42,331 nucleotides of DNA from a virus: the IMG/VR virus record IMGVR_UViG_3300034110_000408, positions 1 through 42,331 of that record, one strand, 5' to 3'. This document shows, one piece after another, positions 17,890 to 38,592 of the stretch. Below the pieces are notes generated by a model, which saw only the letters and a program-made list of their open reading frames with translations, was not told where the DNA came from and ran no database searches. The translations under genes and the position numbers were made by a program. The first letter of the stretch is position 1; each line of letters starts with the position of its first letter.

Positions 17890-18386
17890 TGACCCGAGCC
17901 CTTGCAGCCGCACTGGCCGCCGCCTTGCTGCTGGCAGGCTGGCAGACCTACCGGCTGGAGCGCGAGCGCACAGCCCACGCCAAAGCCGTGGCAGCCCACG
18001 CCCTGCAGATTGGCAGCCTGGAGGCCGCAGCCCGCGAAGCCGAAGCCGCCGCCAGAACCGAAGAACAACGCCGCACCGCAGAGGTGCAGAAAGCCGCCGA
18101 TGAAGCCCACCAAGCCATGGACCGCGCCCGCGCTGATGCTGCTGCTGCCGCTGATGCTGGTAACCGGTTGCGCCAGCACATTGCCACCCTCACCACCGCC
18201 TGCCGTGGCGGCCCCGGCCATGCCACCGCTGCCGGCGCAGGCACGCCAGCCCGAGCCACCGCCGATCTGCTTGCCGACGTGCAGCGCAGGCTTGATGAGG
18301 CTACGGACGGAATTGCTCAATTCGCTGACAGCGCCCACACCGCAGGCCGCGCCTGCCAGCAAAGCTACAGCGCAGTGAAACGCTGA
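17886..18386 (+). CDS. Rz-like inner-membrane spanin subunit
   Basis: 166 aa. The N-terminal hydrophobic segment (about 4-17, RALAAALAAALLLAGW) anchors it in the inner membrane, followed by a long Glu/Ala/Arg coiled coil (20-95) facing the periplasm. This is the i-spanin layout, which with the lipoprotein partner fuses inner and outer membranes at lysis. It starts inside the endolysin stop codon and fully contains the Rz1 frame. Confidence 0.85.
   Translation: MMTRALAAALAAALLLAGWQTYRLERERTAHAKAVAAHALQIGSLEAAAREAEAAARTEEQRRTAEVQKAADEAHQAMDRARADAAAAADAGNRLRQHIATLTTACRGGPGHATAAGAGTPARATADLLADVQRRLDEATDGIAQFADSAHTAGRACQQSYSAVKR
18100..18378 (+). CDS. Rz1-like outer-membrane spanin lipoprotein, nested in Rz
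   Basis: 92 aa read in the +1 frame within Rz. MKPTKPWTAPALMLLLPLML is followed by the lipobox LVTGC, giving a mature Cys-started protein rich in Pro (STLPPSPPPAVAAPAMPPLP), a hallmark of Rz1. The nested Rz/Rz1 arrangement is known from lambda. It ends eight bases before the Rz stop. Confidence 0.85.
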   Translation: MKPTKPWTAPALMLLLPLMLVTGCASTLPPSPPPAVAAPAMPPLPAQARQPEPPPICLPTCSAGLMRLRTELLNSLTAPTPQAAPASKATAQ

Positions 18387-18417
18387 CCAGTTTTCTCCAA
18401 GGTTGAAAAACCTTTTG

Positions 18418-18445
18418 CCCCGGCCTCACCGCCGGGGCTTTTTTT
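18418..18445 (+). terminator. Intrinsic terminator of the lysis operon
   Basis: CCCCGGC (18418-18424) pairs with GCCGGGG (18431-18437) around CTCACC, followed by C and a run of seven T or more. A smaller 6-bp hairpin with GAAA loop (18399-18414) precedes it. It closes the late transcript before the structured-RNA promoter. Confidence 0.9.
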
Positions 18446-18470
18446 CGTGGTACTATTCACGCCGTCACGA
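18446..18470 (+). promoter_or_regulatory. Candidate promoter/operator for the structured RNA
   Basis: TACTAT (18451-18456) is a plausible -10, immediately followed by TCACGCCGTCACG (18457-18469). The same arrangement occurs at 29407 and 38295 (TACAAT followed by TCACACCGTCAAC), before protein operons. No good -35 is visible, so an activator may be needed. It sits directly after the lysis terminator. Confidence 0.5.
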
Positions 18471-18885
18471 AAGCGGATGCTGTGATGACGCTGGTCCCAT
18501 AGGCCAGAAGGTCGGCAGACGCAGCGATTAGGACAGGCTGGGGGTTCCCGGCTGGTGCTGGTGAAAGCCCAGACGACCACCCGGGTGCAAGGCCTGGGGC
18601 CATCATGAAGGTGGATTGAGATGTAGGCCACATCACTGGCGCTGTTAGCACTGAACCCGCGACAGCAGCAACACAGCCGGGGTGATCCCGGCGGGCCACA
18701 GTCCACCCCCATGATGGTGAATGCGCAGGCTGATGCGCGAAAGACCTGTTGATCGGTGAAACCCTAGGCAACACCAAGCCGGAGATCAGCACCGGCCACC
18801 ATCACCCCGCACGCAAGTGCCCGCGCTTTCCTCCCTGGCGCGGCTGCGCAAGCAGTTTCACCCCGGCCCAGCGCCGGGGTTTTTC
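18463..18885 (+). ncRNA. Candidate large structured RNA, about 420 nt
   Basis: This gene-free block is full of helices. The main one pairs 18600-18607 (CCATCATG) with 18710-18717, then a 2x2 internal loop, then 18610-18618 (GGTGGATTG) with 18699-18707, giving 17 pairs with one G-U. Inside it are GATGT/ACATC (18620-18634), GCTGT/ACAGC (18641-18666) and GCCGGG/CCCGGC (18676-18692). Outside, ACAGG (18533-18537) can pair with CCTGT (18745-18749). At the 3' side are GCAC-GCAA-GTGC (18809-18820), CCGCGC/GCGCGG (18821-18843) and CTGC-GCAA-GCAG (18844-18855), two of them with GNRA loops. An intrinsic terminator follows. GATGGTG (18713-18719) can alternatively pair with CACCATC (18797-18803), suggesting two folds. 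I recognise no known class. Exact ends are estimates. Confidence 0.65.
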
Positions 18886-19940
18886 TTCCAGCCCGCATAC
18901 TTGTCGCCGCGCTGCCTGATGTGGGTGTAGCGCTTCAAGCTCTGCCAGCTGCGATGCCCACTCACTGCCGCCACGTGTGGGATGCTCCAGCCCATTTCAA
19001 ACAGGCGGCTGATGCCGTCGTGCCGCAGGTCGTGGAAGTGCAGGCCGTCAATCCCCAGCATCTTGCAGGCCCGCGTGAATGACGCGCTGATGGCGTCCGT
19101 GCTGGCCGGGAATATGCGCGGGTCCGTGCGCGGCTGGCGCTGGATCACGGCCATGGCCTCTGGCGGCAAATCAAGCCACTGGTCGTTACCGATCTTTTCG
19201 CCAGGGTGCTTCATGTCGCGCACCAGCACGCGGCCATGCTCAGCGTCCAGGTCGGCCCACGTGATGCGCGTGATTTCTTCCTGCCGCCGGGTGCTGAACA
19301 TCGCGAACAGCACGATGTCGGCCATGTGGTTGCTGTCAGAGCGCCGCGCACGGCTGGCCTCAAAGTGCGCCAGCAGCCGGTCGAGTTCATCCAGCGTGGG
19401 CCGCCTGTCGCGCTCCCGGCTCTTGCTGGTGACGCCCAGGCGCTTGGCTACCAGCATGGCGTCACGCATGGCCTGCTGATCCAGCGGGTAGCCCCAGGCA
19501 GGGCGGGCGATGGCGAACACTGACCCCATGTGGCTGAGGTAGTTCTGCACCGTCTGAGGTTTGCGGCCACCGTCATGCAGCCGCCTAGCGAACGCCAGCA
19601 CGTCGGCGCTGGCCAGCGCGCTGCACCGCTTGGCGCTGATCTTGTCGGCCATAATGGCGCGCAGCACCTGCGCCTTGGTACGGCCCATCTGGCGCAGTGA
19701 TTCGCCGATGTACCGCTCAATGACTTCGGCCAGCGTTGGGTCGTTGACCGGTGGCAGCTTGTCGGGCAAGTCGCCGCTGGTCAGTTCATCCTCGCGCCTG
19801 GCGATCCACCCCGCAGCCTCGCGGCGGGCCTGGAATGTGCGGTTCTCGCGGTGCAGGATGCGCCCCGCTTCTTTGATGACGATCTGCGCCAGATAGGCCG
19901 TGCGGCCGTCCTTGCGCTTGCGCGGGATGATGCTACCCAT
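18858..19940 (-). CDS. int: Tyrosine-recombinase integrase
   Basis: 360 aa from the ATG at 19940, chosen because GGAG lies eight bases upstream; an ATG at 19970 has no such site. An arm-binding-like N-terminus (IIPRKRKDGRTAYLAQI), a core-binding domain (about 70-165) and a catalytic domain follow. The active-site set is complete: Arg219 (STRRQEE), Lys244, His303 and Arg306 (HFHDLRH), His329 (SGHRS) and Tyr338. It catalyses site-specific integration and excision. The gene lies between late and early blocks. Its upstream region holds TACAACA repeats, and its last codons contain an opposing terminator. Confidence 0.95.
   Translation of the reverse strand: MGSIIPRKRKDGRTAYLAQIVIKEAGRILHRENRTFQARREAAGWIARREDELTSGDLPDKLPPVNDPTLAEVIERYIGESLRQMGRTKAQVLRAIMADKISAKRCSALASADVLAFARRLHDGGRKPQTVQNYLSHMGSVFAIARPAWGYPLDQQAMRDAMLVAKRLGVTSKSRERDRRPTLDELDRLLAHFEASRARRSDSNHMADIVLFAMFSTRRQEEITRITWADLDAEHGRVLVRDMKHPGEKIGNDQWLDLPPEAMAVIQRQPRTDPRIFPASTDAISASFTRACKMLGIDGLHFHDLRHDGISRLFEMGWSIPHVAAVSGHRSWQSLKRYTHIRQRGDKYAGWKKNPGAGPG
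18861..18885 (+). terminator. Terminator of the structured RNA, nested in the int coding end
   Basis: CCCCGGC (18861-18867), loop CCAGC, GCCGGGG (18873-18879), then TTTTT. The T-run is on the plus strand only. The same bases encode the last residues of the minus-strand integrase (NPGAGPG). It would stop plus-strand RNA from running antisense into int. Confidence 0.8.
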
Positions 19941-19951
19941 TGCCTGTCTCC

Positions 19952-19990
19952 GGTACAACATGCGGTCCAATCAGTGCGATTTGTTGTACC
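19952..19990. repeat. Inverted repeat GGTACAACA...TGTTGTACC before int
   Basis: Perfect 9-bp inverted repeat (19952-19960 and 19982-19990) with a 21-base gap, 12 to 50 bases upstream of the integrase ATG. It may be an operator for int or part of attP (arm-type sites). The same core recurs at 20188-20221, 24980 and 41492-41635. Confidence 0.6.
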
Positions 19991-20187
19991 AGCACCCCGA
20001 AAACGGTTCAACATCGGCGCTCAGGACTGCAAAACGAGTTTCAGGTAGAGGGTAAATAGCTGTGCAGATGCAAGCGGTTAGCAGGCCAAATGACAAATGG
20101 CGATTCAATACCGCGCCGATGATGGACTGGACAGGTTTTCGCTGTAAGTGGCTGCAGCGCCTCAACATTTTTCAGGCGCGGCAGCCA

Positions 20188-26947: not shown

Positions 26948-27150
26948 AACCCATCTGCACCGTCTGCGGCCGTCGCACCACGCCATTCGCGATGCTGGGC
27001 ACCGAGCCGATCGGCCCGAAGTGCGCGGCCAAGATGGGCCTGACGCCCGGCAAGGTCGGCAAGTCCAGCCGCGTGCGATTTACGAAACTCAAGCCCCAGC
27101 GGCGGCCAGCAGGTCCAGAGACTGGGGATTTATTTGAAGGAATGGAATGA
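26944..27150 (+). CDS. Small zinc-ribbon-like protein
   Basis: 68 aa. MKPICTVCGRRTTPFAMLGT, then EPIGPKCAAKMGL provides CxxC and a further single Cys, a partial zinc knuckle (only three cysteines, so zinc binding may use a dimer or His/Asp). A basic middle (KSSRVRFTKLKPQRRP) and an acidic end follow. It sits between transporter and methyltransferase with ATGA overlaps on both sides. Function unknown; a DNA-binding accessory is possible. Confidence 0.6.
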   Translation: MKPICTVCGRRTTPFAMLGTEPIGPKCAAKMGLTPGKVGKSSRVRFTKLKPQRRPAGPETGDLFEGME

Positions 27151-27692
27151 ACACAAGCAAACAAATATTGGACGCCTGCTGTGGCAGTCGAATGATGTGG
27201 TTCGACCGCCAGAACCCAGATGTAACCTTTGGGGACCGCCGCAGCGAAACCCTGACCGTGACCGACAACAGCCGGGGCAACGCATCCGGCACCCGCACGA
27301 TCCGCATTGAGCCCGACACCTTGATGGATTTTCGGGCCATGCCATTTGCCGATGGCACCTTCAAGCTGGTGGCGTTTGATCCGCCCCACTTGGTGCAGGC
27401 TGGCCCAAAATCGTGGCTTGCAGCCAAATACGGAAAACTCAGCGACGACTGGCGCGAAGACCTGCGCAAGGGCTTTTCCGAGTGTTTTCGCGTTCTGGCC
27501 AGCGATGGTGTGCTGGTGTTCAAGTGGAACGAAACGCAGGTGAAGCTGCGGGAAGTCTTGGCACTGACACCGCACCAGCCGCTGTTTGGAAACACCAGCG
27601 GCAAAAAGGCGGGCACACACTGGATGGTGTTTATGAAGCCCGCCAACGACAACCAGCCCCGCGCCGCTGACCTGTTCGGGGGTGCGGCATGA
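27147..27692 (+). CDS. Class I SAM-dependent methyltransferase
   Basis: 181 aa. Motif I is ILDACCGSRMMWFD (residues 6-19), and the catalytic motif is VAFDPPHLVQAG near 75-86, a DPPH variant of the DPPY/W motif of amino-group DNA methyltransferases. Then GFSECFRVLASDGVLVFKW (motif VI-like) and a C-terminal strand THWMVFMKP. It lacks any target recognition domain. Such stand-alone phage enzymes methylate DNA bases or possibly other substrates. The specificity cannot be read from sequence. Coupled to both neighbours. Confidence 0.75.
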   Translation: MNTSKQILDACCGSRMMWFDRQNPDVTFGDRRSETLTVTDNSRGNASGTRTIRIEPDTLMDFRAMPFADGTFKLVAFDPPHLVQAGPKSWLAAKYGKLSDDWREDLRKGFSECFRVLASDGVLVFKWNETQVKLREVLALTPHQPLFGNTSGKKAGTHWMVFMKPANDNQPRAADLFGGAA

Positions 27693-29362
27693 CTATTCAC
27701 CTACGCGACTATCAGCAAAAACTCGCCGACGACGTGCGGCTGTCCTACCGCATGGGCTACCGCTGCCCGCTGGTGGTGGCCAGCACTGGCGCGGGCAAAA
27801 CGATCCTGTTCAGCTACATCACCCACGGCGCGGCCCAGCGGGGCAACCCGGTGCTGATCGCTGCCCACCGCAAGGAAATCATTCGCCAGATCAGCCTGAG
27901 CCTGGCGCGCTTCGGGGTGGAGCACCAGGTGATCGCGGCACCGTCTGCCGTGCGGGCCATCAAGGTGGCGCACTTCAAGGCGTTCGGGCGCAGCTTCGTC
28001 AGCGCCAGCAGCACCACCATGGTGGGCAGCGTGCAGACCATCGTGGGGCGATTCGACATCATCGATGCCACGCTGGCCCGGGTGGCCGCCAAGACCGGCA
28101 AGCCTGCTCGCCTGCTGGTGGTCATGGACGAAGGCCACCACGTCGTGGCCGACACGCAGTGGGGCAAGGTCATGGACCGCTACTGTGGCGACGCTGGGGG
28201 CTTGGGCCTGATCGTGACCGCCAGCCCCGAGCGACTGGACGGGCGCGGCCTGGGCGCTGGCCACGGCGGCTATGCCGACCACATGATCGAGGGCCCGCCC
28301 ATGTCGTGGCTGATCGAAAACGGGTTCTTGTCGCCCTATCGCATCTTCACGGCGGCCCAGCAGATTGACCTGGCGGGCGTGCGCACCCGCATGGGCGACT
28401 ACGTGGCGTCAGACCTGCAGGAGCGTGTCGACAAACCGACAGTGACCGGCGACGCCATCGCGCACTACCGCCGCCACGCCAACGGCATGCGGGCCGTGGT
28501 GTTCTGCGTCAGCATCAGCCACAGCCAGCACGTGGCCGCCGAGTTTCTGGCGGCTGGCATCCCGTCTGCCCACATCGACGGTGCCACGGACGACGCGGCG
28601 CGTGACCAGTCCATCACGGACTTTGCCGACGGCAAGGTGCAGGTGCTCACGCAGGTCAACCTGGTGAGCGAGGGGTTCGACCTGGGCAGCATCGCCCAGA
28701 AGGACGTGACCATCGACTGCATCATCGACCTGGCCCCCACGGCATCGCTGGTCAACGCCATGCAGCGCTGGGGCCGCGCACTGCGCCCCGGCCCGGGCAA
28801 GACCGCCATCTTGCTGGACCACGCGGGCAACGTGCTGCGCCACGGCCTGCCCGACGAAGAACGCCAGTGGTCGCTGGAGGGCCGCAAGAAGACCCGCCGA
28901 AAAGCCGACAACGACAACGAGCCGGATGTCAAAATCTCGACATGCACGCAATGCTTCGCGGTACATGCCCCAGCGCCCGAGTGCCCGGCATGCGGCCACG
29001 TCTACCCGATCAAAGAGCGCAAGGTGGAGCAGCAAGACGGCGACCTGCAGGAGCTCACCGACGAGGCCATGGAGGCGCTGCGTCGCCAGAAGCGCATCGC
29101 CCAGGGCCAGGCCCAGAGCGTCGAGGCACTGGTGGCGCAAGGCGTGAGCCGGTTTCGCGCCGTCAAGATCATCGAGGCCCGCGAAGCAAAGCAGGCGCTG
29201 ATTGGCGAGATCGTGGACGCCCTGCAAGCCAGCCAGCAGCGCACCGGCATGGGCCCATATCAGACGTGCGGGCACACGCTGGCCGACATTCGCCGCATGA
29301 AGCCCAAAGAACTGAAAGAGCTGCAGGCCAAGCTGCCATCGCTGATGACTGTGGCGGCATAG
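27689..29362 (+). CDS. SF2 DEAD/DEAH-box helicase (RadD-like)
   Basis: 557 aa. Motif I VASTGAGKTIL (28-38), motif II MDEGHH (near 147-152), motif III TASP, the second RecA domain with VVFCVSISHSQHVAAEF, motif V TQVNLVSEGFDLG and motif VI MQRWGRALRPG. The C-terminal CTQCFAVHAPAPECPACGHV zinc ribbon (about 417-436) and helical tail resemble RadD/YejH-type helicases. It is likely used for origin opening or recombination. Last gene of the coupled rightward operon. Confidence 0.88.
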   Translation: MTIHLRDYQQKLADDVRLSYRMGYRCPLVVASTGAGKTILFSYITHGAAQRGNPVLIAAHRKEIIRQISLSLARFGVEHQVIAAPSAVRAIKVAHFKAFGRSFVSASSTTMVGSVQTIVGRFDIIDATLARVAAKTGKPARLLVVMDEGHHVVADTQWGKVMDRYCGDAGGLGLIVTASPERLDGRGLGAGHGGYADHMIEGPPMSWLIENGFLSPYRIFTAAQQIDLAGVRTRMGDYVASDLQERVDKPTVTGDAIAHYRRHANGMRAVVFCVSISHSQHVAAEFLAAGIPSAHIDGATDDAARDQSITDFADGKVQVLTQVNLVSEGFDLGSIAQKDVTIDCIIDLAPTASLVNAMQRWGRALRPGPGKTAILLDHAGNVLRHGLPDEERQWSLEGRKKTRRKADNDNEPDVKISTCTQCFAVHAPAPECPACGHVYPIKERKVEQQDGDLQELTDEAMEALRRQKRIAQGQAQSVEALVAQGVSRFRAVKIIEAREAKQALIGEIVDALQASQQRTGMGPYQTCGHTLADIRRMKPKELKELQAKLPSLMTVAA

Positions 29363-29375
29363 GGTAAACACTGAA

Positions 29376-29430
29376 TAAATATTTACAGCGGCAACAAAAA
29401 AGCCGCTACAATCTTCACACCGTCAACACT
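29376..29430 (+). promoter_or_regulatory. Promoter/operator of the small-gene operon
   Basis: TTTACA (29382-29387), a 19-base spacer, TACAAT (29407-29412). A 6-bp inverted repeat AGCGGC...GCCGCT (29387-29392, 29402-29407) lies between -35 and -10. TTCACACCGTCAACAC (29415-29430) follows the -10 and matches the boxes at 18457 and 38301. The upstream AAATATTTAC also recurs at 16171, 32347 and 41568. Confidence 0.6.
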
Positions 29431-29449
29431 TAAACCAAGGAGTTATTTC

Positions 29450-29632
29450 ATGAAACCCTCAAACCTCACCACCCCGCGCCAGCTGTCTGACTGCTGGTTC
29501 CCCACCGGCTTCGCCACCACCCGGTCGATGGCCTACCGCCCAGAATCTTGGGAGGAGTGGGCGGGCTACGCACTGGCGTTCGTCATCGGCTTCGCGTTGG
29601 CCGCCTTCCTGTTCTTCGGCTGGAGCGCATGA
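29450..29632 (+). CDS. Small membrane protein
   Basis: 60 aa, AAGGAG before the ATG. Hydrophilic first 35 residues, then one transmembrane helix (about 38-58, WAGYALAFVIGFALAAFLFF). No recognised family. First gene of the operon that follows the 29382 promoter. Its stop overlaps the next start. Confidence 0.6.
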   Translation: MKPSNLTTPRQLSDCWFPTGFATTRSMAYRPESWEEWAGYALAFVIGFALAAFLFFGWSA

Positions 29633-29973
29633 TGGCCAAGACAAAATTCGCGGGCAGCAAAAACCCCTTCACTGGCGAGTCCAAGCTCAAGCGCGTCGAC
29701 GCCGACCTGATCAGCATCACCAACGACCCGATGCCCGAGCGCCGCGTGCGCGACAGCAAATATGACCACCTGTTTGCCAGCCTCAAGCCGGGCCAGTCGC
29801 TGCGCGTGCCCAGCGCTTCGGTGAGCAGCGTTTCTCAGGGCGTGCGCAAGTGGCTGGAGAAAAACGGCACGGACTCCGTGGGCCGCGTCAAGGCCGCCGT
29901 CAATTACCCCGGCGACGCAGGCTTCGGCCGCATCTGGCTGGTGGAGCCCGGAAAGACTGGGGGCCGCAAGTGA
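29632..29973 (+). CDS. Hypothetical DNA-binding-like small protein
   Basis: 113 aa from the ATG at 29632; the ATG at 29629 would add one Met. A basic N-terminus (KTKFAGSKNPFTGESKLKRV), then a helix-rich body ISITNDPMPERRVRDSKYDH, and SLRVPSASVSSVSQGVRKWL, ending in a basic tail. The SLR.PS.....V.....W/L.KNG pattern suggests a small nucleic-acid-binding domain but no clear family. Overlaps the GTG start of the next gene by four bases. Confidence 0.55.
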   Translation: MAKTKFAGSKNPFTGESKLKRVDADLISITNDPMPERRVRDSKYDHLFASLKPGQSLRVPSASVSSVSQGVRKWLEKNGTDSVGRVKAAVNYPGDAGFGRIWLVEPGKTGGRK

Positions 29974-30347
29974 ACTGCTGCGACGACTTCGGGCGGTGCA
30001 CACGTGGCCCCGGCTGCCCAGCTGGCGAACCCTGCCCGCACTGCCGTGGCCTGGGCTACGACGCCAGCGGCTACACCTGCACCTGCGTCAAGCCTGCCGA
30101 GGTGGCCAAGGTGGGCCGCAAATACCAAGACCGCGACCCGCTGCCGGCATCGCCATGGCGCGCCTACCTGCGCCACCTGGCCTGGGCAATGCTGCTGGTG
30201 GTGGCCGTCACGCTGGTCAGCGGCCTGACCGTCGGGCTGCTGGACCGCCAGAAAGCAGCCGAAAGCCAGTGCCAGGCGCTGGTGAAAGAGTGGCAGGCCG
30301 TGGGCGTGCCGAAGCATATCAAGATCAAATGTGGGGAGTATTTATGA
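29970..30347 (+). CDS. Cys-rich membrane-anchored protein
   Basis: 125 aa from GTG 29970, overlapping the previous stop. The first 35 residues hold eight Cys (NCCDDFGRCTRGPGC, CPHCRG, CTC), two or more likely zinc pairs. A transmembrane helix follows at about 69-88 (HLAWAMLLVVAVTLVSGLTV), then a coiled periplasmic or cytoplasmic end. The zinc-plus-membrane layout could anchor a nucleic acid or protein at the membrane. No family known to me. Confidence 0.6.
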   Translation: MNCCDDFGRCTRGPGCPAGEPCPHCRGLGYDASGYTCTCVKPAEVAKVGRKYQDRDPLPASPWRAYLRHLAWAMLLVVAVTLVSGLTVGLLDRQKAAESQCQALVKEWQAVGVPKHIKIKCGEYL

Positions 30348-30757
30348 GCAACACCGAATTGCGCGGGGCGATCCACGTCCTGCAAGGACTGCTGACAGAA
30401 GCCGTCAGCGTGATCAACACCATTGAGCCTGAAAGCACCGAAGAAAAAGCGATGCTGGACGCCCTGGTCGACCGCATGTGCGCGGCTGCAACGCCGTTTT
30501 GTCAGAAGCCAGCGCTTGCAGCACAACCAGCCACCAGCATGAGCCGAGGCGAAGTGAAGGCGTGGCTGGCCGCAAACGGAGCAGGCCCGGATGACTCTAT
30601 GCCGAACTCATACGAGGCTGTGGTCGATGTGTTCTACAAGTTGGTTCAAAGGGCCACGCAGCCAGCACATGTGCAGTTCGCAATGACTGACAACAACGGC
30701 AACAAACTGAGCTTTGTGAATTGCACGATCGCCGCACAAGAGAAAGGCCAGCTATGA
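30344..30757 (+). CDS. Hypothetical protein
   Basis: 137 aa with GGGGAG before the start. Helical N-terminus (GAIHVLQGLLTEAVSVINTI), then a small C-terminal domain (SMPNSYEAVVDVFYKLVQRA and VQFAMTDNNGNKLSFVNC). No recognised motif. Overlaps both neighbours by four bases. Confidence 0.6.
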   Translation: MSNTELRGAIHVLQGLLTEAVSVINTIEPESTEEKAMLDALVDRMCAAATPFCQKPALAAQPATSMSRGEVKAWLAANGAGPDDSMPNSYEAVVDVFYKLVQRATQPAHVQFAMTDNNGNKLSFVNCTIAAQEKGQL

Positions 30758-30948
30758 AAGCAATCTGGAAATGGCTGGGCACGCCCACGGCATTTAAATT
30801 ACTCAGCATCGTGATTTTTTTGTACATGTGCGTTGGAGCATTTGGCCGCACATCAAGCTGGTGGGAAACCTTCAACGGCGCTCTGTTGTTTTACGTTATT
30901 TGGGGGCTTGGCTATAACAGCGCCGCACCAAAGAAAGGCGGGGCGTGA
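30754..30948 (+). CDS. Small two-helix membrane protein
   Basis: 64 aa. Hydrophobic helices at about 15-30 (KLLSIVIFLYMCVGAF) and 43-54 (ALLFYVIWGLGY), with basic ends. AAAGG lies upstream of the ATG. Function unknown. It overlaps the next gene's start by one base. Confidence 0.6.
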   Translation: MKAIWKWLGTPTAFKLLSIVIFLYMCVGAFGRTSSWWETFNGALLFYVIWGLGYNSAAPKKGGA

Positions 30949-31217
30949 TGAACCTCACCCTTACACTGGCCCAGGTCGAAACGATCACTGCGCCAGCCAT
31001 CCAGCAATACAAGGCCCGGATGGCCATCGAGGCGAACGGCCACGCCATCAAGGTCAAGCGCATTGAGAGCAAGCACCGGCGCAAACTGGACGCGGCAAAC
31101 GCCAGGACGGCGGATTGGAAGGCCAGATACCAGATGACCCGCAAAAACCTGCTGGCCGCCATGACCGAGATTCAAGAACTGAAACGCCGTCTGCGTGATG
31201 GCAAATGGGAGGACTGA
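30948..31217 (+). CDS. Small coiled-coil protein
   Basis: 89 aa from ATG 30948, overlapping the upstream stop. Two basic helical halves: AQVETITAPAIQQYKARMAI and KHRRKLDAANARTADWKARY, then a third helix to the end. Likely a coiled-coil dimer. No known family. Confidence 0.6.
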   Translation: MNLTLTLAQVETITAPAIQQYKARMAIEANGHAIKVKRIESKHRRKLDAANARTADWKARYQMTRKNLLAAMTEIQELKRRLRDGKWED

Positions 31218-31218
31218 T

Positions 31219-31626
31219 ATGACTGCAAAGACCTGGAAAGATGTACCCCGCTGGCAGCGCGTCAGCGTCTACGTGACCGGAGGCCTGCTGGCCGCTGTCG
31301 TGGCGCTGATCGCGGCGGCACCCGAGCCGAAGGCAAGCCCCGAGCAGCTGCAGCTGCAGGCCCAAAAGGCCCAGGGCCTCGATGACCAGTTCAGCCGCTG
31401 GGACGGCAGCCACATCAAGATGACCGAGGCCATCCGAAAAACGATGAACGACCCCAAGAGCTTCGAGCACATCGAAACGAAATACCGGGTCAACACCAAC
31501 GGCACGGTGCGCGTGGTCACCGAGTTCACGGGCCGCAACGCCTTCGGTGGCGTGGTGCGCCAAAAGGTTTCCGGCCTGGTGGACGCAAAGACCGGCGATG
31601 TTTTGGAGTTGGCCGCGATTCAGTAG
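31219..31626 (+). CDS. Membrane-anchored protein with a C-terminal alpha/beta domain
   Basis: 135 aa, GGAGG before the ATG at 31219. A single transmembrane helix near the N-terminus (about 16-33, VSVYVTGGLLAAVVALIAAA) can act as an anchor. A globular part follows: KMTEAIRKTMNDPKSFEHIE, then EFTGRNAFGGVVRQKVSGLV. The same motif set (DP.SFEH... GRNAFGG) is common in short phage and conjugative-element lipoprotein-like proteins. Function unknown. Confidence 0.65.
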   Translation: MTAKTWKDVPRWQRVSVYVTGGLLAAVVALIAAAPEPKASPEQLQLQAQKAQGLDDQFSRWDGSHIKMTEAIRKTMNDPKSFEHIETKYRVNTNGTVRVVTEFTGRNAFGGVVRQKVSGLVDAKTGDVLELAAIQ

Positions 31627-31635
31627 AATCGGGGC

Positions 31636-32013
31636 ATGGCACAGAACCGTGAAACCCGCACCGTCGCGCACCCAGCAATGCTGGCAGTCGGCACGCGCCA
31701 GGACGTCATGGTCTGGAAGCAACCCGTGGGCCTGTTCCGGGCGCTTGAAGACCCAGACCGCAAGGTGCTGGTGGGTACACCCGGACAGTCCGACACCATG
31801 GCCGTGGTGGCCGTCACGATCACGCCCGACATGGTCGGCAAGACCATCGGCGTGGCCGTGGCCCCTGAGTTCAAGACCACCAAAGGCAAGCAAAGCGACA
31901 AGCAAAAGCTGTGGCAGGCCGCCTTCGAAAAACGAGGCGGCGTCTACCAGCTGGTGCGCTCGCCCGCCGAAATGATTGACCTGGTGGAGAGGGTGCAGCG
32001 TGGCAACTGGTGA
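31636..32013 (+). CDS. VRR-NUC domain nuclease
   Basis: 125 aa. The core LVGTPGQSDTMAVVAVTITP, then VGKTIGVAVAPEFKTTKGKQ with the ExK-type catalytic pair in PEFKT (Glu91, Lys93 roughly), then QKLWQAAFEKRGGVYQLVRS. This is the PD-(D/E)XK fold used by VRR-NUC phage nucleases, which resolve branched DNA. TAGAAT (31624-31629) just before it might be a -10. The stop overlaps the GTG start of the next gene. Confidence 0.82.
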   Translation: MAQNRETRTVAHPAMLAVGTRQDVMVWKQPVGLFRALEDPDRKVLVGTPGQSDTMAVVAVTITPDMVGKTIGVAVAPEFKTTKGKQSDKQKLWQAAFEKRGGVYQLVRSPAEMIDLVERVQRGNW

Positions 32014-32200
32014 CCGCATCCACCCCAGCCCCAACGAGCTGCTGACGTTCTGCGCCCGCAAGGACCAGAGCGCCGATTACGTGCGCCGGACAGCCGACTG
32101 GATCAAGACCGAATACCCGGGCAGCGCCGAGGCCCTGCTGCCTAGGCTGCGCAAGATTTACCGCGAGAAGCCGCGAGGGCACCAGTCGGCCACTTCCTAG
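32000..32200 (+). CDS. Hypothetical small protein (DUF7696-like)
   Basis: 66 aa from GTG 32000, with GAGAGGG upstream. It is inside the end of the VRR-NUC gene. PSPNELLTFCARKDQSADYV and ADWIKTEYPGSAEALLPRLR resemble a short phage family with a Trp-containing helix. Function unknown. It is the last gene before a 216-base structured gap. Confidence 0.55.
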   Translation: MATGDRIHPSPNELLTFCARKDQSADYVRRTADWIKTEYPGSAEALLPRLRKIYREKPRGHQSATS

Positions 32201-32335
32201 GGCGCGCACTTCGCCCGAACGACTGGAAAAGTGAGCAGCGCAGGCCCCAGCCGCAAGGCAGTCGCATGGGGCCAATGCACCCGGGCCAGTGTTAGCGCAC
32301 TGGTCCGGGTCGCTGGAATTAGGGTAAGTCCCTAC
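32200..32335 (+). ncRNA. Candidate structured RNA element
   Basis: Several helices in a row: GGGCG/CGCCC (32200-32204 with 32212-32216); GGCCCCA/TGGGGCC (32243-32249 with 32267-32273) enclosing a GCC-GCAA-GGC hairpin (32250-32259); a 12-bp hairpin 32280-32291 with 32298-32309 (loop TTAGCG, one G-U); TAGGG/CCCTA (32320-32334). Strand is uncertain; no T-run follows. It lies after the 32200 stop codon and before the next promoter, so it may be a 3' UTR or a separate RNA. Confidence 0.5.
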
Positions 32336-32346
32336 GCCAACCCCTA

Positions 32347-32400
32347 TATTTATTTACGATGGCAGTAAAACGCCTGTATAATTCTTTACATCGTAAACAC
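32347..32400 (+). promoter_or_regulatory. Promoter framed by a 9-bp inverted repeat
   Basis: TTTACG (32353-32358), spacer 18, TATAAT (32377-32382). TTTACGATG (32353-32361) and CATCGTAAA (32389-32397) form a perfect inverted repeat around the promoter, so a dimeric regulator could cover it. The TTACATCGTAAACAC after the -10 is a relative of the TTCACACCGTCAACAC boxes. Confidence 0.65.
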
Positions 32401-32416
32401 AACCAAGGGGAAACAC

Positions 32417-32698
32417 ATGAGAATAATCCGTACCTTTACCACCTCCGACCTGGGCAAGACTATGCCGGCCGAGTTGCCCTGCAACATCACCGCAGGTGAA
32501 CACTTCTCCAAGTTCTACGCCCTTGACACCTGCGATGTGTGGACTGCGGACGGATGGGTGGTGACTGCTGTGCAGGACGACGGCGTGACGCACCACCTTC
32601 GCAAAGGTCGCGACGTCATGGTGGCTGAGATTCAGGCTGATGCCGTGTTCAGATTCAACCCCACACCGAAGGCTCGTTATCTGCTTGGCCTCGCGTGA
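32417..32698 (+). CDS. Hypothetical small protein
   Basis: 93 aa, AAGGGG before the ATG. A small beta-rich protein (IIRTFTTSDLGKTMPAELPC; VWTADGWVVTAVQDDGVTHH) with no membrane segment. No recognised family. It follows the promoter framed by the inverted repeat and is probably an early function. Confidence 0.6.
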   Translation: MRIIRTFTTSDLGKTMPAELPCNITAGEHFSKFYALDTCDVWTADGWVVTAVQDDGVTHHLRKGRDVMVAEIQADAVFRFNPTPKARYLLGLA

Positions 32699-32766
32699 CA
32701 GCACCAGCTGGAGCCCGGCGTGCCGGGTTCTGGCGGGCGCTGTTGCCCGGTTCACCAAGGAAGAAA

Positions 32767-33453
32767 ATGGACATCAACCTCAAGGCCCGTTTGGTGGCCG
32801 CCATTGCGCAATTCAAAGCCGACCGAGACATTCGCTTTTACCTGAACGGCGTTTACCTGGAGCCGCACCAAAAGGGAGGCGCGATCATTGCTGCCACCAA
32901 CGGCCATGCCATGGGCATCTGGCACGATGAAAGCGCTACAGGCGTCGAGCGGGCAATGATTTTGGGCCTCGATGCCAAGCTGCTGCAGGCCTGCCAGGGG
33001 AGCGACCTAAAGCGACTGGTGGTGCGTGATGGCCGCCTGGCAGTGATACTGGAGCAAGGTGAAAAAGAGGTCTACATCCAGCCTATCGCCGAGCGCAAAA
33101 CTGCTGTGCCTTCGTGGGAGATCGAAGGCAAGTTTCCGGACTGGCGCAGGGTGATACCTGAACCAACCAGCACCCATGGCCTCAAAGGCTTTGTAAACGC
33201 CCAGTACATTGCGGACGTTGACCGCGCACTGAAAATAGGCAGCGTCAATTACAGCAAATTCAATTCGATGCAATTCATGCAACTCGATGCCAATTCAGCA
33301 GTATTGGTGACGGCTGCCATATGCCCAGAGTTTGCGGCCGTGATCATGCCGATGCGGGACGATTGTATGCCTTACCCCGCCTGGCTGGAGCTCGAAAAAG
33401 CCGAGTGGAAGGCAAAGCAGAATGCAAACGCACCCGAAAGCAATGCCGCATGA
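32767..33453 (+). CDS. DNA sliding-clamp-like protein
   Basis: 228 aa from the ATG at 32767, preceded by AAGGAAG; the 68-base gap has two GC hairpins (32714-32727 and 32734-32749). It looks like a short DnaN-type clamp: YLEPHQKGGAIIAATNGHAM, like the ATDGHRLA strand; FPDWRRVIPEP like FPDYxxVIP; and C-terminal VIMPMRDD like VLPMRL. T4 gp45 is also about 228 aa, so a two-domain trimeric clamp is possible. No clamp loader is in the window. Role as a phage clamp or a host-polymerase recruiter is inferred. Confidence 0.65.
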   Translation: MDINLKARLVAAIAQFKADRDIRFYLNGVYLEPHQKGGAIIAATNGHAMGIWHDESATGVERAMILGLDAKLLQACQGSDLKRLVVRDGRLAVILEQGEKEVYIQPIAERKTAVPSWEIEGKFPDWRRVIPEPTSTHGLKGFVNAQYIADVDRALKIGSVNYSKFNSMQFMQLDANSAVLVTAAICPEFAAVIMPMRDDCMPYPAWLELEKAEWKAKQNANAPESNAA

Positions 33454-33560
33454 CCGTCTGGCCCTTCCCCCCACCCGGCGGCCCCGTGCCATGGACGCGC
33501 AAGCAGATCACAGAACACGCCCGCCAGCAGCGCCAGCAACTGCCTGACGCACCGTTTTAA
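33450..33560 (+). CDS. Very small Pro-rich protein
   Basis: 36 aa starting in the previous stop (ATGA). Sequence MTVWPFPPPGGPVPWTRKQI and then a Gln/Arg helix (HARQQRQQLPDAPF). Coupled translation supports it being real. Function unknown. Confidence 0.5.
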   Translation: MTVWPFPPPGGPVPWTRKQITEHARQQRQQLPDAPF

Positions 33561-33580
33561 TCAACCAACCAAGGAAAATC

Positions 33581-34669
33581 ATGTTCGGAAACAAAGTCTA
33601 CGAATTGTCTCTAGTGAAGAACTACGTCAGCCACTGGGGCTTGGCCGAGGCCTGCCGCGAGCTGATCCAGAACGCGCTCGACAGCGATTCCCCGTTTGTC
33701 TATTCGTTCGACCGCAGCGAAGCTGGCACCTACACCCTGCGCTTGACCAGCGAGTTTGCCCGGCTGAGCCCGCAAACCCTGCTGCTGGGGGCCACCAGCA
33801 AAGCAGACAGCAAGGACGCCATCGGCAGCTTCGGCGAGGGCTACAAAATCGCCCTGCTGGTGCTGACACGCATGGGCTACGACGTGGACATGCTCAACGG
33901 CGACGTGCTGTGGAAGCCGCGCTTTCGCTTTAATCGCCAGTTCGGCGAGGAACTGTTGGCCATCGAAGAAAGCCAGGCACCGACACGCGGCAACAAGGGC
34001 CTGACGTTTGTCGTGCACGGACTGAGCGCCGACGAGGTCGAGGCGATCCGGGCGTCCTGCATCCGCATGCAAGACCACATCGGGGCCATCCGCATGACCA
34101 GCTACGGCGACATTCTGCTGGAGCGCCCCGGCGAGCTATACGTGGGCGGCCTGCTAATCTGCCAGACCGGCATGAAGTTCGGCTACAACATCAAGCCAGA
34201 ATTCATCCGGCTGGAGCGCGACCGCCAGACGGTTTCCGATTGGGACCTCAAGTCCATCACCAAGGAAATGTGGTTCGAAACCAAAGAATTCGACGAGATC
34301 GCCCAGCTGGTGCACGACGAAGTCAAGGACGTGGCTTATGTCGAATACGGCTGCCCCGAGCTGGTGAAAGAGGCCTGCTATCAACTTTTCCGCAAGAGCA
34401 ACCCCGACGCGCTGGTGGCGGGTTCGCAGACCGAGCTCAAGGAAATGATCGAGCGAGGCCTGACCAAGACAGTCTATGTAGGCGGCGGTTTCCACTACGC
34501 CGTGAGCAACGCGCCGTCGTACGTCAAAGAAACGCGCCAGCTGGTGGCCGTGCAATCGCCCACCGAGTGCCTGCGCCAGTGGCTGAGCGCCAACCGAAGC
34601 GAAATGCGCAGCAAGTCCATCGAGGCTTTCAAGCAGCTGATCACCGAGTCCAAGGCCTGGAAGGTCTAA
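33581..34669 (+). CDS. GHKL-type ATPase
   Basis: 362 aa, AAGGAAAA before the ATG. The N-terminal third carries GHKL parts: N-box AEACRELIQNALDSD with Glu27 and Asn31, then LLLGATSKADSKDAIGSFGEG with the G2 loop GSFGEGYK at 82-89. The usual DxGxG adenine-binding motif between them is not obvious (SEFARLSPQTL in its place), so nucleotide binding may differ. The rest has no known domain; QETELKEMIERGLTKTVYVG-like helices lie near the end. Relatives in the MutL/Hsp90/MORC group use ATP-driven dimerisation. RdgC follows 44 bases downstream. Confidence 0.7.
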   Translation: MFGNKVYELSLVKNYVSHWGLAEACRELIQNALDSDSPFVYSFDRSEAGTYTLRLTSEFARLSPQTLLLGATSKADSKDAIGSFGEGYKIALLVLTRMGYDVDMLNGDVLWKPRFRFNRQFGEELLAIEESQAPTRGNKGLTFVVHGLSADEVEAIRASCIRMQDHIGAIRMTSYGDILLERPGELYVGGLLICQTGMKFGYNIKPEFIRLERDRQTVSDWDLKSITKEMWFETKEFDEIAQLVHDEVKDVAYVEYGCPELVKEACYQLFRKSNPDALVAGSQTELKEMIERGLTKTVYVGGGFHYAVSNAPSYVKETRQLVAVQSPTECLRQWLSANRSEMRSKSIEAFKQLITESKAWKV

Positions 34670-34713
34670 CCCGCCGCCGGTCGGCCACCGGCAACCTGTA
34701 ACCAAGGAGTTTT

Positions 34714-35619
34714 ATGTTCAAACAAGCATCCATTTACAAAATCACAGGGGTCAACCCGTCCACTCTGGACGCCGACCTCAAAGCCCAAACCTTCATCCCG
34801 TGCGGCGCTTCGCAGGAAAAGTCGGTCGGCTGGGTTCCACCACGCGGCCACGAACACGGCCCCATGGTCGAAACCATTGGCGGCCAGACGATCATCAAGC
34901 TCATGATCGAAACCAAGTCCGTGCCCGGTGATGCCGTGCGTCGTGCCACAGATGAGCGCGTCAAGCTGATCGAAGCCGAAACCGGCCGCAAACCCGGCAA
35001 GAAGGAACGCCGCGACATCATGGACGATGTGCTGCTGTCCATGCTGCCCAACGCCTTCGCAAAGCAAGCCACCGTGACCGGCTGGATCACGAACGATGGC
35101 CTGCTGATCGTGGACAGTACCAGCCAAGGACGCACTGACGAATTCATGTCGGCGCTGATCAACGCCACCGAAGGTGTGAACGTTCGCCTGATCCAGACCG
35201 TCACAAGCCCGCAGGCGGCCATGACGCAGTGGTTGCTCGCCGAGACAGCCGACGAGTGGCCGGACAACCTGAACGTCGAGCGGGAATGCGTGCTGCAGTC
35301 GATCGGCGAAGACGCGGCAACGGTCAAATTCAACCGCCACCACCTGGCGAACAACGACGTGCGCAAACACGTGCTGGAGGGCAAGCTGCCAACGGCGCTG
35401 GCCCTGAGCTGGGACGGCCGCATGGCGTTCGTGCTGACCGACACCTTGAAGCTAAAAAAGCTGCAGTACCTGGATGGCGTGGAAAGCCACGGCGACCAGC
35501 ATGAAGACCGATTCGACGCCGACGTGGCGCTGGCCACAGGGAATCTTCGCCTGCTGATCGAAGACCTGGTGTATGCGCTGGGCGGAGACATGGACGCCCA
35601 GGAAGGCGGTGCAGAATGA
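34714..35619 (+). CDS. rdgC: RdgC-like recombination protein
   Basis: 301 aa, the length of E. coli RdgC (303). Shared motifs: N-terminal MFKQASIYKI, FIPCGASQEKSVGWVPPRG, VMDDVLLSMLPNAFAK-like (DIMDDVLLSMLPNAFAKQAT), NDGLLIVDSTSQGRTDEFM, LPTALALSWDGRMAFVLTD and RFDADVALATGNLRLLIEDL. RdgC forms a ring on double-stranded DNA and limits RecA. AAGGAG lies before the ATG. A 6-bp hairpin (34676-34692) lies in the gap upstream. In a phage it may protect replication intermediates or moderate host RecA. Overlaps the next gene by four bases. Confidence 0.9.
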   Translation: MFKQASIYKITGVNPSTLDADLKAQTFIPCGASQEKSVGWVPPRGHEHGPMVETIGGQTIIKLMIETKSVPGDAVRRATDERVKLIEAETGRKPGKKERRDIMDDVLLSMLPNAFAKQATVTGWITNDGLLIVDSTSQGRTDEFMSALINATEGVNVRLIQTVTSPQAAMTQWLLAETADEWPDNLNVERECVLQSIGEDAATVKFNRHHLANNDVRKHVLEGKLPTALALSWDGRMAFVLTDTLKLKKLQYLDGVESHGDQHEDRFDADVALATGNLRLLIEDLVYALGGDMDAQEGGAE

Positions 35620-36050
35620 GCGCGGCCTACATCGAAGTCAGCGCAGGCGTGCGCTATTGGGAAGACGCCACGATCAACGACATCACAGACGATGACGGCA
35701 AACTCACGCCGCTCAAGAAGGGTGATTGCTGGTGCCCCGTGATTCGCCTTGAAGACGGTCAGGTGATGGACTGGCCCGCAGGGACTACCGCAAACATCCA
35801 CTTCAAGGTTTGTGATGCAGGCGAATACTGGCTGCTTGATGAAGCCAAACAGCGCATTGCAAAGTGGGGCGGGTACTACGTGCCCGATGACTTTCTGTGC
35901 CCTGTTGGCAATGGATACGGCGATTACATCATCATGAAAATCAACGCCGAGGGTGTGATTCAGAAGTGGTCAAAGCCTGCGATTGAATTTGCCTGCGATT
36001 GTGATGGCGAGGATGAAAGCCAACACCGCTGGAAGAAGCTGACCGCATGA
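35616..36050 (+). CDS. Hypothetical protein
   Basis: 144 aa. The start YIEVSAGVRYWEDATINDIT and the body GDCWCPVIRLEDGQVMDWPA, GEYWLLDEAKQRIAKWGGYY, VPDDFLCPVGNGYGDYIIMK form a beta-rich domain of a type often seen in phage early regions. Several conserved-looking Cys. Function unknown. Overlaps both neighbours by four bases. Confidence 0.6.
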   Translation: MSAAYIEVSAGVRYWEDATINDITDDDGKLTPLKKGDCWCPVIRLEDGQVMDWPAGTTANIHFKVCDAGEYWLLDEAKQRIAKWGGYYVPDDFLCPVGNGYGDYIIMKINAEGVIQKWSKPAIEFACDCDGEDESQHRWKKLTA

Positions 36051-36223
36051 CCCGCGCCGCCAACATTCACCAGGCCCGGGTCTATCTGGCCCAGGCCCGT
36101 GTGCGCCGCCACCAGCCGGGCTTTCATGCCGTGCTGCTGGCGTGGGTGGCTGACGCCAGACGGCGGGCCGCCATTTTTTCAATTTCACAACGGGAGCTTT
36201 TCAGTGATCGACACATATTTTGA
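36047..36223 (+). CDS. Small helical protein
   Basis: 58 aa beginning at an ATGA overlap with the upstream gene. The sequence is helical and Arg/Ala-rich (RAANIHQARVYLAQARVRRH, then QPGFHAVLLAWVADARRRA). It overlaps the next start (GTG 36204) by 20 bases. Coupling on both sides supports it. Function unknown. Confidence 0.55.
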   Translation: MTRAANIHQARVYLAQARVRRHQPGFHAVLLAWVADARRRAAIFSISQRELFSDRHIF

Positions 36224-36464
36224 CCGCGTGGATGCGGCTACCGGCTACGAGCCGACACCATCGCGCCCAATCTCAGAGGATCCCCGCCACTGGGGCGGGC
36301 AGCTTTACGCCACGGTCATCGACCGCCAGGTGGCCGAGGCCCGAGCCATCGTGCGGTGGGTCGTCGTCACAACCGCCGCCACCCACAGCGTTGAAATGCG
36401 CCATGGCATCCAACTTGGCAGCCGGCACAGTCAATTTGAGGCCAATGGCCGGTGGAAATCATGA
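36204..36464 (+). CDS. Small hypothetical protein
   Basis: 86 aa from GTG 36204 with GGGAG upstream. Ends with ATGA overlap to the HNH gene. A short alpha/beta protein: DTYFDRVDAATGYEPTPSRP, then VIDRQVAEARAIVRWVVVTT and HSVEMRHGIQLGS. No known family. Confidence 0.5.
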   Translation: MIDTYFDRVDAATGYEPTPSRPISEDPRHWGGQLYATVIDRQVAEARAIVRWVVVTTAATHSVEMRHGIQLGSRHSQFEANGRWKS

Positions 36465-37153
36465 GGCAACGCCACGTCTGGACCGATGACGAACTGCAGG
36501 CCCTGCGCCAGCACTACGCCGGCACGCAGACCAACACGCTGGCGAAGCGTCTGGGGCTGTCAGCCGAGCAGGTCTATCGCCAGGCATCACGGCTCGGGCT
36601 CAAGAAGTCCGAGGATTTCATGGCCAGCGACCGGAGCGGGCGGATCAAGCGCGGGCGCGTCGATCCCCGCATGATCGCCAGCCAGTTCAAGGCCGGACTG
36701 GTGCCATGGAATAAGGGGACCAACTGGGCCGCTGGCGGCCGCAGCGTCGAGACCCGTTTCAAACCCGGGCGCAAGCCAGAGGAGGCCAGAAACTACATGC
36801 CGATCGGCACCACCAGAATGACCAACGACGGGTATCTGGAGCGCAAGGTTACGGACGATCCGAAGCTGGTACCGGCCCGCCGCTGGGTGGCCGTGCACCG
36901 CCTGGTGTGGGAGGCCGCGAACGGCCCGGTACCAAAGGGCCACATGGTCATCTTCAAGCCCGGCATGCGCACCACCGTCGAGGCCGACATTACGCCAGAT
37001 CGTCTGGAGTGCATCAGCCGCGCCGAAAATGCCCGCCGAAACCACCCGCGGACTAAATCCCCGGAGCTGGCCAGGCTTGTCCAACTCAAGGGTGCCATCA
37101 CCAGGCAAGTCAACCGCATCACCCGTGAATCACAAACCAAAGGAAAATCATGA
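36461..37153 (+). CDS. HNH homing-type endonuclease with N-terminal HTH
   Basis: 230 aa from ATG 36461. Residues 1-50 are a SANT/HTH-like start (HVWTDDELQALRQHYAGTQT; LAKRLGLSAEQVYRQASRLG). A linker with GTTRMTNDGYLERKVTDD follows. The HNH_3 fold is AVHRLVWEAANGPVPKGHMV, then PDRLECISRAENARRNHPR. The middle His and the SRAEN segment are typical; the HxxN line is degenerate, as in many phage members. May act as a free-standing homing nuclease or nicking factor. Overlaps both neighbours. Confidence 0.8.
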   Translation: MRQRHVWTDDELQALRQHYAGTQTNTLAKRLGLSAEQVYRQASRLGLKKSEDFMASDRSGRIKRGRVDPRMIASQFKAGLVPWNKGTNWAAGGRSVETRFKPGRKPEEARNYMPIGTTRMTNDGYLERKVTDDPKLVPARRWVAVHRLVWEAANGPVPKGHMVIFKPGMRTTVEADITPDRLECISRAENARRNHPRTKSPELARLVQLKGAITRQVNRITRESQTKGKS

Positions 37154-37440
37154 CGACACCGCACATTGAAGAACTTCGGCAACACCTCATGCAGACGCTT
37201 GCCAGCCTGCGAGACCGCGAGAACCCCATGGAGCCCGACCGCGCCAGAGCAGTCGCCCAGGTTGCGTCCGTTCTGGTGGACACTGCCAAAGTCGAGGTCG
37301 ACTACATTAAGGCGACAGGCGCAGACCGCAGCGACTTTCTTGAGGGGAAGCCGACCACACCGGCCTTGCCAAGCCCAAACGCCGAGCCAGCCGCGCACAA
37401 TCCATTTCCGGTGAGTAAGGTTCACCGCTTGCAGGGATGA
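37150..37440 (+). CDS. Small hypothetical protein
   Basis: 96 aa. Helical N-terminal half (IEELRQHLMQTLASLRDREN; RAVAQVASVLVDTAKVEVDY), then a Pro-rich tail (PTTPALPSPNAEPAAHNPF). The pattern HL..TLA.LRD......P...RA.A.....V.....KVE.. recurs in phage early operons next to HNH genes. Function unknown. Overlaps both neighbours by four bases. Confidence 0.6.
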   Translation: MTTPHIEELRQHLMQTLASLRDRENPMEPDRARAVAQVASVLVDTAKVEVDYIKATGADRSDFLEGKPTTPALPSPNAEPAAHNPFPVSKVHRLQG

Positions 37441-38255
37441 GCCGCCGCAAACCTGCTGCGGCCATCACCACCACCACCGGGCACAAGGCCGAGCTGATCA
37501 AGACCATGCAGGGCCTTGCGCATCGGCATGACCTGTGGCGGGTATTCAGCGACTTTGTGGAGATGGCCGCCGTCAGCATCGCCAACGCCTGCGACACACT
37601 CAACCGCGACCGCGAAGCCCGCGAGGCCCGCTACATGGAAATGATCAAGGCCTACACCCGCGAGGAGTTGGCCGAGTTCCCCAAGATGCTGGGCCAGCTG
37701 ACCATGGCGCTCGAGTGCGGCATGGATGACGTGCTGGGCGAGGTGTTCATGGAGTTGGACCTGGGCAGCAAGTGGCACGGCCAATTCTTCACGCCCTACG
37801 AAATCTGCCAGGTCATGGCCAGGCTGACCATTGGGCCAGAGAACATCCAGGCCGAGATTGACCGCAAGGGATTCATCACCGTCAACGAGCCAGCATGCGG
37901 CGGCGGTGCCATGCTGCTGGCCATGGCCGAAGAACTGCAGCGCGCTGGTGTGAACTACCAGCAGCACATGCACTGCACTGCCCAAGACCTGGACCTGAAA
38001 GCCGTGCACATGGCTTACGTGCAGCTGTCACTGCTGCACATCCCGGCCATCGTCATCCATGGCAACACGCTGGCCTGCGAAGAACGCAGCCACTGGTGCA
38101 CGCCTGCCCACATCATGGGCGGCTGGGCATGGAAGCTGCGCCGTCCGGAAGCCCCGGCCAACGACAATGCGCCGGAGCCAACGCCGGTGCCGCAGCCTGC
38201 ACAATTGGCACCACCGCCACCCCCTGCACAGTGGCAGCAAGCTGGCCTTTTCTGA
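37437..38255 (+). CDS. N6-methylase-like protein without visible NPPY
   Basis: 272 aa. Type I N6-methylase parts are present: KWHGQFFTPYEICQVMARL, NEPACGGGAMLLAMAEELQR (motif I region) and CTAQDLDLKAVHMAYVQLSL, then a HGNTL strand. The catalytic NPPY/F (motif IV) is absent where expected; the chain continues ACEERSHWCTPAHIMGGWAW and ends with Pro-rich sequence. Phage proteins of this shape are common. It may bind SAM or DNA without methylating, or use an unusual catalytic motif. Last of the accessory operon. Confidence 0.7.
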   Translation: MSRRKPAAAITTTTGHKAELIKTMQGLAHRHDLWRVFSDFVEMAAVSIANACDTLNRDREAREARYMEMIKAYTREELAEFPKMLGQLTMALECGMDDVLGEVFMELDLGSKWHGQFFTPYEICQVMARLTIGPENIQAEIDRKGFITVNEPACGGGAMLLAMAEELQRAGVNYQQHMHCTAQDLDLKAVHMAYVQLSLLHIPAIVIHGNTLACEERSHWCTPAHIMGGWAWKLRRPEAPANDNAPEPTPVPQPAQLAPPPPPAQWQQAGLF

Positions 38256-38262
38256 CCAATCA

Positions 38263-38535: not shown

Positions 38536-38552
38536 CCGGGCTTATACTTTCC

Positions 38553-38592
38553 ATCCAGATCGCTGCGCCCGCACGGCAATCTGGATTTTTTT
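38553..38592 (+). terminator. Intrinsic terminator
   Basis: 8-bp stem ATCCAGAT (38553-38560) with ATCTGGAT (38579-38586) and a run of seven T. It lies 17 bases after the HTH gene stop and shields the replication genes from read-through. Confidence 0.75.

Follow-up and report, generated by a model that had tools for sequence, protein, structure and literature searches.

The gene-free block at positions 18446 to 18885 of the viral record IMGVR_UViG_3300034110_000408 (IMG/VR; the whole stretch of 42,331 nucleotides [nt] is termed the window herein) is probably a phage-borne non-coding RNA gene, with a putative free-standing transcript of ∼420 nt that contains a conserved three-way-junction core with kissing loops and an insert. 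As judged from sequence comparison, the core represents a widespread RNA family that is missing from Rfam and that combines a near-constant frame with a different insert in almost every phage. Many Beta- and Gammaproteobacteria have phages or prophages that carry a member of the family, which, if expressed, would constitute a common prophage RNA that has so far been overlooked, probably because its short constant halves stand apart around an unrelated insert. Polymorphic toxins and CRISPR spacers likewise combine a fixed frame with non-homologous inserts; we know of no other structured RNA that does so.

Structure and borders of the block

The block is flanked on one side by genes for a GH19 endolysin and then an Rz-like spanin (both on the plus strand) and on the other by a convergent phage integrase gene. 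The following features were assigned (window coordinates):

18417 to 18445, plus strand: intrinsic terminator of the lysis genes (GH19 endolysin/Rz-like), the upstream border (terminator scan)
18451 to 18456, plus strand: TACTAT, weakly −10-like, in a promoter presumed from the sequence, with a start near 18462
18462 to 18599, plus strand: 5′ domain of phage-specific hairpins without known homologue (folding z of −1.0, no match)
18600 to 18618, plus strand: strand a, the 5′ arm of the 17-pair helix P0, the first 8 nt of which pair with 18710 to 18717
18619 to 18698, plus strand: inner multi-hairpin core of the P0 domain, which differs between phages
18699 to 18719, plus strand: strand b, the shared switch strand, made up of the P0 3′ arm (18699 to 18717) and the overlapping P1 5′ arm (18712 to 18719)
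18712 to 18804, plus strand: outer stem P1, 18712 to 18719 (TGATGGTG) with 18797 to 18804 (CACCATCA, strand c) (covariation)
18720 to 18722, plus strand: linker AAU, present in 127 of 127 cores but largely fixed by the search patterns
18723 to 18738, plus strand: hairpin P2, GCGCA-GGCUGA-UGCGC, whose loop pairs with the P3 loop (loop covariation)
18739 to 18777, plus strand: hypervariable insert, 39 nt in the window and roughly 12 to 190 nt in other copies
18778 to 18796, plus strand: hairpin P3, GCCGG-AGAUCAGCA-CCGGC, directly followed by strand c
18809 to 18855, plus strand: 3′ hairpins, two of them with GCAA loops (18809 to 18820 and 18844 to 18855)
18860 to 18885, plus strand: intrinsic terminator at which the RNA presumably ends, back to back with the integrase gene
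18858 to 19970, minus strand: convergent integrase

The original prediction had described a 420-nt RNA with its own promoter-like site, running from one terminator to another. Terminators were indeed found at both borders (18417 to 18439 and 18860 to 18881); of the promoter, a strict sigma-70 scan found nothing, leaving the weak TACTAT. The 17-pair helix was present (18600 to 18607 with 18710 to 18717 and 18610 to 18618 with 18699 to 18707, separated by a 2x2 internal loop, AA/CC), as were the two GNRA hairpins. That these complementarities exceed chance held for the 120-nt helix domain (18600 to 18719; z = −4.4, with 0 of 200 shuffles folding as well) and for the 83-nt 3′ tail (z = −3.7, 0 of 200), but not for the 5′ domain (18466 to 18603; z = −1.0), which folded no better than its shuffles and gave no match in a search of phage records. 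The entire 420 nt scored z = −2.6 (1 of 100 shuffles), compared with −1.9 for the antisense strand. Two antisense open reading frames of 115 and 111 amino acids overlap the block; the core evolves as RNA. No tRNA or tmRNA was detected in the window by ARAGORN or Rfam, and no cloverleaf or T-loop domain was seen.

A conserved frame with kissing loops

In blastn comparisons with phage records, only ∼90 nt of the block (18715 to 18807) matched, among otherwise unrelated phages, and the alignment of these matches consisted of two constant halves flanking a changing middle. When viral contigs were searched with the pattern of the first half only, at least 120 stretches were obtained, most of which also contained the second half and the outer stem. 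The core of the window is 94 nt long (18711 to 18804) and comprises, in order, the outer stem, the linker GUG-AAU, GCGCA(GGCUGA)UGCGC, the variable insert, and GCCGG(AGAUCAGCA)CCGGC, so that all of the features by which we define the new family (outer stem, GUG-AAU, P2 and P3 with complementary loops, and a variable joint) are found in it; the P2 loop GGCUGA is complementary to the P3 loop. The core would fold as a three-way junction of P1, P2, and P3, with the two loops kissing through 5 to 6 pairs and the hypervariable segment in the P2-P3 joint.

We collected 127 distinct cores from phages and mostly beta- and gammaproteobacterial genomes. They contained 38 different outer-stem (X) sequences, and a single position showed as many as six pair types; the inner outer-stem pairs were formed in 115 to 127 of the cores, and both P2 and P3 varied with compensation. 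Since this set had been selected partly by pairing, the test was repeated on 134 units found by the two loop sequences alone. Although no stem conditions had been imposed, the six X pairs were formed at a frequency of 0.82 (mean of 1,000 shuffles, 0.58; maximum, 0.62), and the inner four at 0.91 to 0.96. These shuffles leave relatedness in, but many unrelated X sequences contribute: a member pairing at five or more of the six positions was found in 32 of 51 X classes. Loop variants that were searched for separately kept the kiss by two-sided changes (GGTCGA/TCGAC, GGTTGA/TCAAC, and GTGCGA/TCGCA), the exception being GGATGA, one with a mismatch. On one strand, G·U pairs outnumbered A·C pairs about fourfold (77 versus 20), indicating that the core folds as RNA on the plus strand. 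Such comparison among copies shows the frame, the loop-loop pairing, and the folding strand, and likewise the variability of the insert and the accessory status described below.

Among pattern matches in genomes, 60 of 119 loci passed the full-structure test, with titles mostly from Beta- and Gammaproteobacteria; matches in other groups mostly failed it and served as an informal negative control. In Escherichia coli, the half-frame alone occurred in 1,256 of 5,426 complete genomes, and no annotated feature lay under it among the E. coli matches listed.

Compensatory changes in the stems of homologues and the outcome of the Rfam scans, in which thresholds were not reached, support the proposal that the block contains a new class of phage RNA. 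The proposed 420-nt unit stands as a structured RNA but not as the conserved unit, which is a constant frame of ∼55 nt plus the variable insert and measures 94 nt in the window. This unit is usually preceded by a competing helix; what remains of the 420 nt is specific to the phage of the window.

A probable upstream competitor of the outer stem

The alternative pairing originally described between 18713 to 18719 and 18797 to 18803 was found and is actually one of 8 pairs (18712 to 18719 with 18797 to 18804). It would break the 17-pair helix as proposed but, far from being a side feature, it closes the conserved unit as its outer stem. In the window, 18600 to 18607 rivals 18797 to 18804 for 18712 to 18717, and in the predicted folds the 17-pair helix and the alternative pairing are the two competing states.

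Such competition is common. For 73 of 105 units, the stretch immediately before the core paired with a partner farther upstream better than 95% of shuffles did, which puts a helix competing for the outer stem in about 70% of copies. When the partner was located without using X, 72 of 95 paired at five or more of the six positions by Watson-Crick pairs, and with one unit per distinct X, the competing strand scored 4.76 (shuffle maximum, 4.17). The interior of the upstream helix was as diverse as the inserts described below (87 regions in 78 clusters). The median difference in predicted energy between the two exclusive folds was 0.55 kcal/mol (quartiles, −2.4 and 3.4; n = 88), with the kiss left out of the count and the near equality due in part to the similarity in sequence of strands a and c; in the window, the two values were −78.6 and −75.4. 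These models strongly suggest that P0 and P1 share one strand, so that the RNA has two mutually exclusive folds whose predicted energies are close. In the growing transcript, P0 would be the first to form and could later be displaced by P1.

The insert differs in almost every copy

The 124 inserts that were compared fell into 113 clusters, 105 of them singletons, between nearly identical flanking halves, and near-identical inserts recurred behind different upstream helices. Forty-six percent of the inserts folded with z below −1 against mononucleotide shuffles, and a T-loop-like motif was present above the level of such shuffles but rarely (6 of 127). One insert (L096:3978-4026) contained a tRNA covariance match, which was tRNA-like with the acceptor stem missing.

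We read the block as an RNA gene in which the insert would be the working part. The putative ∼420-nt transcript, separate from those of its neighbors, would end at the 18860 terminator; the constant frame would confer stability or bind a common partner, and the insert would be a payload under diversifying selection, for example, a decoy or inhibitor in conflicts with the host or between phages. We tentatively consider that the family may act in trans as a conflict RNA, an “RNA moron,” whose frame displays the variable payload. More doubtful is an elaborate version, a polymorphic RNA effector system in which unrelated payloads from a very large set, directed against factors of the host or rival phages, are swapped within a constant kissing-loop frame shared by phages of Beta- and Gammaproteobacteria and the three-strand exchange times the formation of the frame; swapping of payloads between phages would then resemble the exchange of the tips of polymorphic toxins.

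Genomic placement and the possibility of a leader

A close relative of the phage (L489) has kept both flanks of the block (17892 to 18367 and 18894 to 19994 align at about 77% identity), with only about 165 nt between them and the block absent. Since both flanking genes are there without it, the RNA block is accessory. The empty site (L489:4029-4194) contains a small hairpin that shares GGGGGTTCCCGGC with the 5′ domain of the window and may be a remnant or another small RNA.

Copies follow Q or cI, lie between lysis genes and an integrase gene, or belong to tRNA operons, as cargo would; others stand alone. Genes upstream often encoded Q-like antiterminators or CI-like repressors, and those downstream included genes for holins, endolysins, methyltransferases, an N-like protein, or an integrase. 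One locus (L074) had the same placement as the window, with Rz on one side and an integrase on the other. Two first-type cores stood in tandem, 427 nt apart, in L043 (3148 and 3575), followed by tRNA-Met.

Many copies lie at the starts of operons (after cI, after Q, and some by boxA/boxB-like sites), a placement that a cis-acting leader would explain no less well than an RNA gene would. A leader is the main rival reading, although we consider it rather unlikely. By analogy with HK022 put or a nut site, the element would act on polymerase or on the downstream mRNA: the frame would touch the elongation complex and protect untranslated or early and late operons from termination, with the insert as a tolerated loop. 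HK022 put RNA is a compact phage leader with two stem-loops that lies immediately after an early promoter (PMC9378689). Several placements agree with a leader. In E. coli prophages (O157:H7, O111:H8, and PMV-1), the core lies between a CI-like repressor gene and yfdP-yfdQ-yfdR, on the same strand; among upstream genes of known role, those for Q-like antiterminators are the most frequent apart from repressors, with holins and endolysins downstream, as in phiEt88 (Q - core - tRNA-Phe - holin); and tRNA operons are untranslated. A boxA-like sequence (CGCTCTTTAACA) lies just upstream of the core in L049, L055, L023, L441, and L464, in some of them with a boxB-like hairpin, and these nut-like sites precede copies without an upstream helix. 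Terminators within 200 nt downstream were three times as frequent as at random places (19% versus 6%), in favor of an RNA gene, but most copies have none nearby. The promoter of the window itself is weak, and a −10 site at a constant distance was poorly supported ahead of copies lacking P0, with 3 of 23 sharing the best offset. Against a leader, a terminator and a convergent integrase gene lie downstream of the RNA in the window, so that nothing there could benefit; a cis element offers no reason for non-homologous inserts; and the early and late region of HK022 (27000 to 40751) contained neither the core nor the loops of its sibling (see below). Unlike put, the core has two kissing hairpins under a common stem and a large insert, and it also occurs in free-standing units with a terminator.

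Comparison with known RNAs

Rfam scans of the block down to an E value of 5 gave sub-threshold matches only, mostly terminator-like, with no family at the curated threshold in the window, and no family covered the core in the related loci scanned. The match to anti-hemB reached 41.6 bits (cutoff, 49.5) and concerned only the 3′ tail (18819 to 18887). A tmRNA call by ARAGORN over the core in L002 looks false. Proteo-phage-1 (RF03044), unlike the core, is a separate 82-nt domain; it precedes the core by about 150 nt, on the same strand, in L001 (2764 to 2843) and L120 (676 to 756), where it may form part of a longer RNA, and Rfam detected it neither in the window nor in the other loci scanned. 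We found no description of the core family in the openly licensed literature; one may exist elsewhere.

The covariance models of GOLLD and ROOL gave no match in the window or in the related loci scanned, in keeping with the original prediction, which had recognized neither. GOLLD and ROOL are RNAs of phages and prophages that often lie close to tRNA islands; they have kissing loops, and their linkers, which in GOLLD sometimes contain tRNAs, are weakly conserved (PMC12286853). The core resembles them as a phage and prophage non-coding RNA of unassigned function with tRNAs nearby, kissing loops, and poorly conserved segments, and its way of working may be like theirs or like that of put. Assembly of RNA alone, in which loops would pair between molecules to form rings or cages showing the variable segment, is suggested by these parallels and by the tRNA-like insert of L096, but it is unlikely: the core has about 94 nt rather than 600 to 800 or more and, unlike GOLLD and ROOL, is a single three-way junction with a nearly always non-homologous insert and a shared-strand upstream domain, and a kiss between two 5-bp hairpins of one junction can form inside a single molecule. 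Purine riboswitches contain hairpin loops at one junction that kiss in this way. In both tRNA and purine riboswitch folds, an outer stem carries two hairpins with touching loops, the 3′ hairpin being stacked on the outer stem. The core shares the outer stem, the two contacting loops, and the 3′ hairpin directly on the outer stem; unlike tRNAs and purine riboswitches, it gives no such score, its loop contact consists of 5 to 6 Watson-Crick pairs, and its joint spans roughly 12 to 190 nt.

T4 RNAs C and D are small stable RNAs of a phage tRNA operon, a setting that some copies of the core share; we know of no function for them, and the core was absent from their sequences. The type III antitoxin RNAs (abiF and ToxI) were rejected as candidates, as no toxin gene adjoins the block, whose neighbors are the endolysin, the Rz-like spanin, and the integrase. 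The abiF RNA is a 37-nt motif without structural likeness to the core and was found by a core in one case (L125:1269-1305; 55 bits), 4 nt after it and between terminase genes. No abiF gene was seen in the 4 kb of that phage contig examined, and the RNA is possibly an orphan antitoxin. In another locus, a SIB antitoxin RNA match (L051:1709-1862, minus strand) had a core about 230 nt downstream. These two single cases hint at counter-toxin cargo.

Neighboring tRNA and integrase genes

Among tRNAs within 500 nt of a core, 32 of 33 were on the same strand, and in four cases the next tRNA started 5 to 18 nt after the core. These arrangements would suit a processing unit or insulator of tRNA operons that secondarily spread to other transcripts, a reading that we regard as very unlikely, since no more than 19 of the 127 cores lie within 500 nt of a tRNA and the window has none. 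The agreement in strand, together with the excess of G·U pairs, would fit a core that is expressed as RNA. Both observations argue against a structure in single-stranded DNA, for example, a site of recombination or replication, an explanation that we consider highly improbable. In its favor, recombination appears to occur between frames and inserts, and the copy in the window adjoins an integrase gene, but integrases are a minority among the genes neighboring copies. Six relatives of the integrase that were examined had no core nearby.

A sibling type and a repeat-rich phage region

A sibling type has the same frame start as the core (GUG-AAU-NNN-GCUAAGCGCA-NNN-GG, insert, CCUGG-AGGCA-CCAGG, and outer stem). 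It was found at L004:3336-3420, from L127:2585 on, and in L249 to L364, its carriers being P1/P7, SfV-like phages, and many E. coli prophages (the ymfH region in K-12 strains). In Klebsiella phage UPM 2146 (L005), the sibling has a small stem, UCU/AGA, in place of GCG/CGC. Both core types occur in a region of this phage (L005:890-4088) that extends over about 3 kb without an annotated gene and contains many long inverted repeats, with adjacent hairpin domains sharing a strand (for example, 2919-2939/3025-3045 and 3031-3054/3224-3247).
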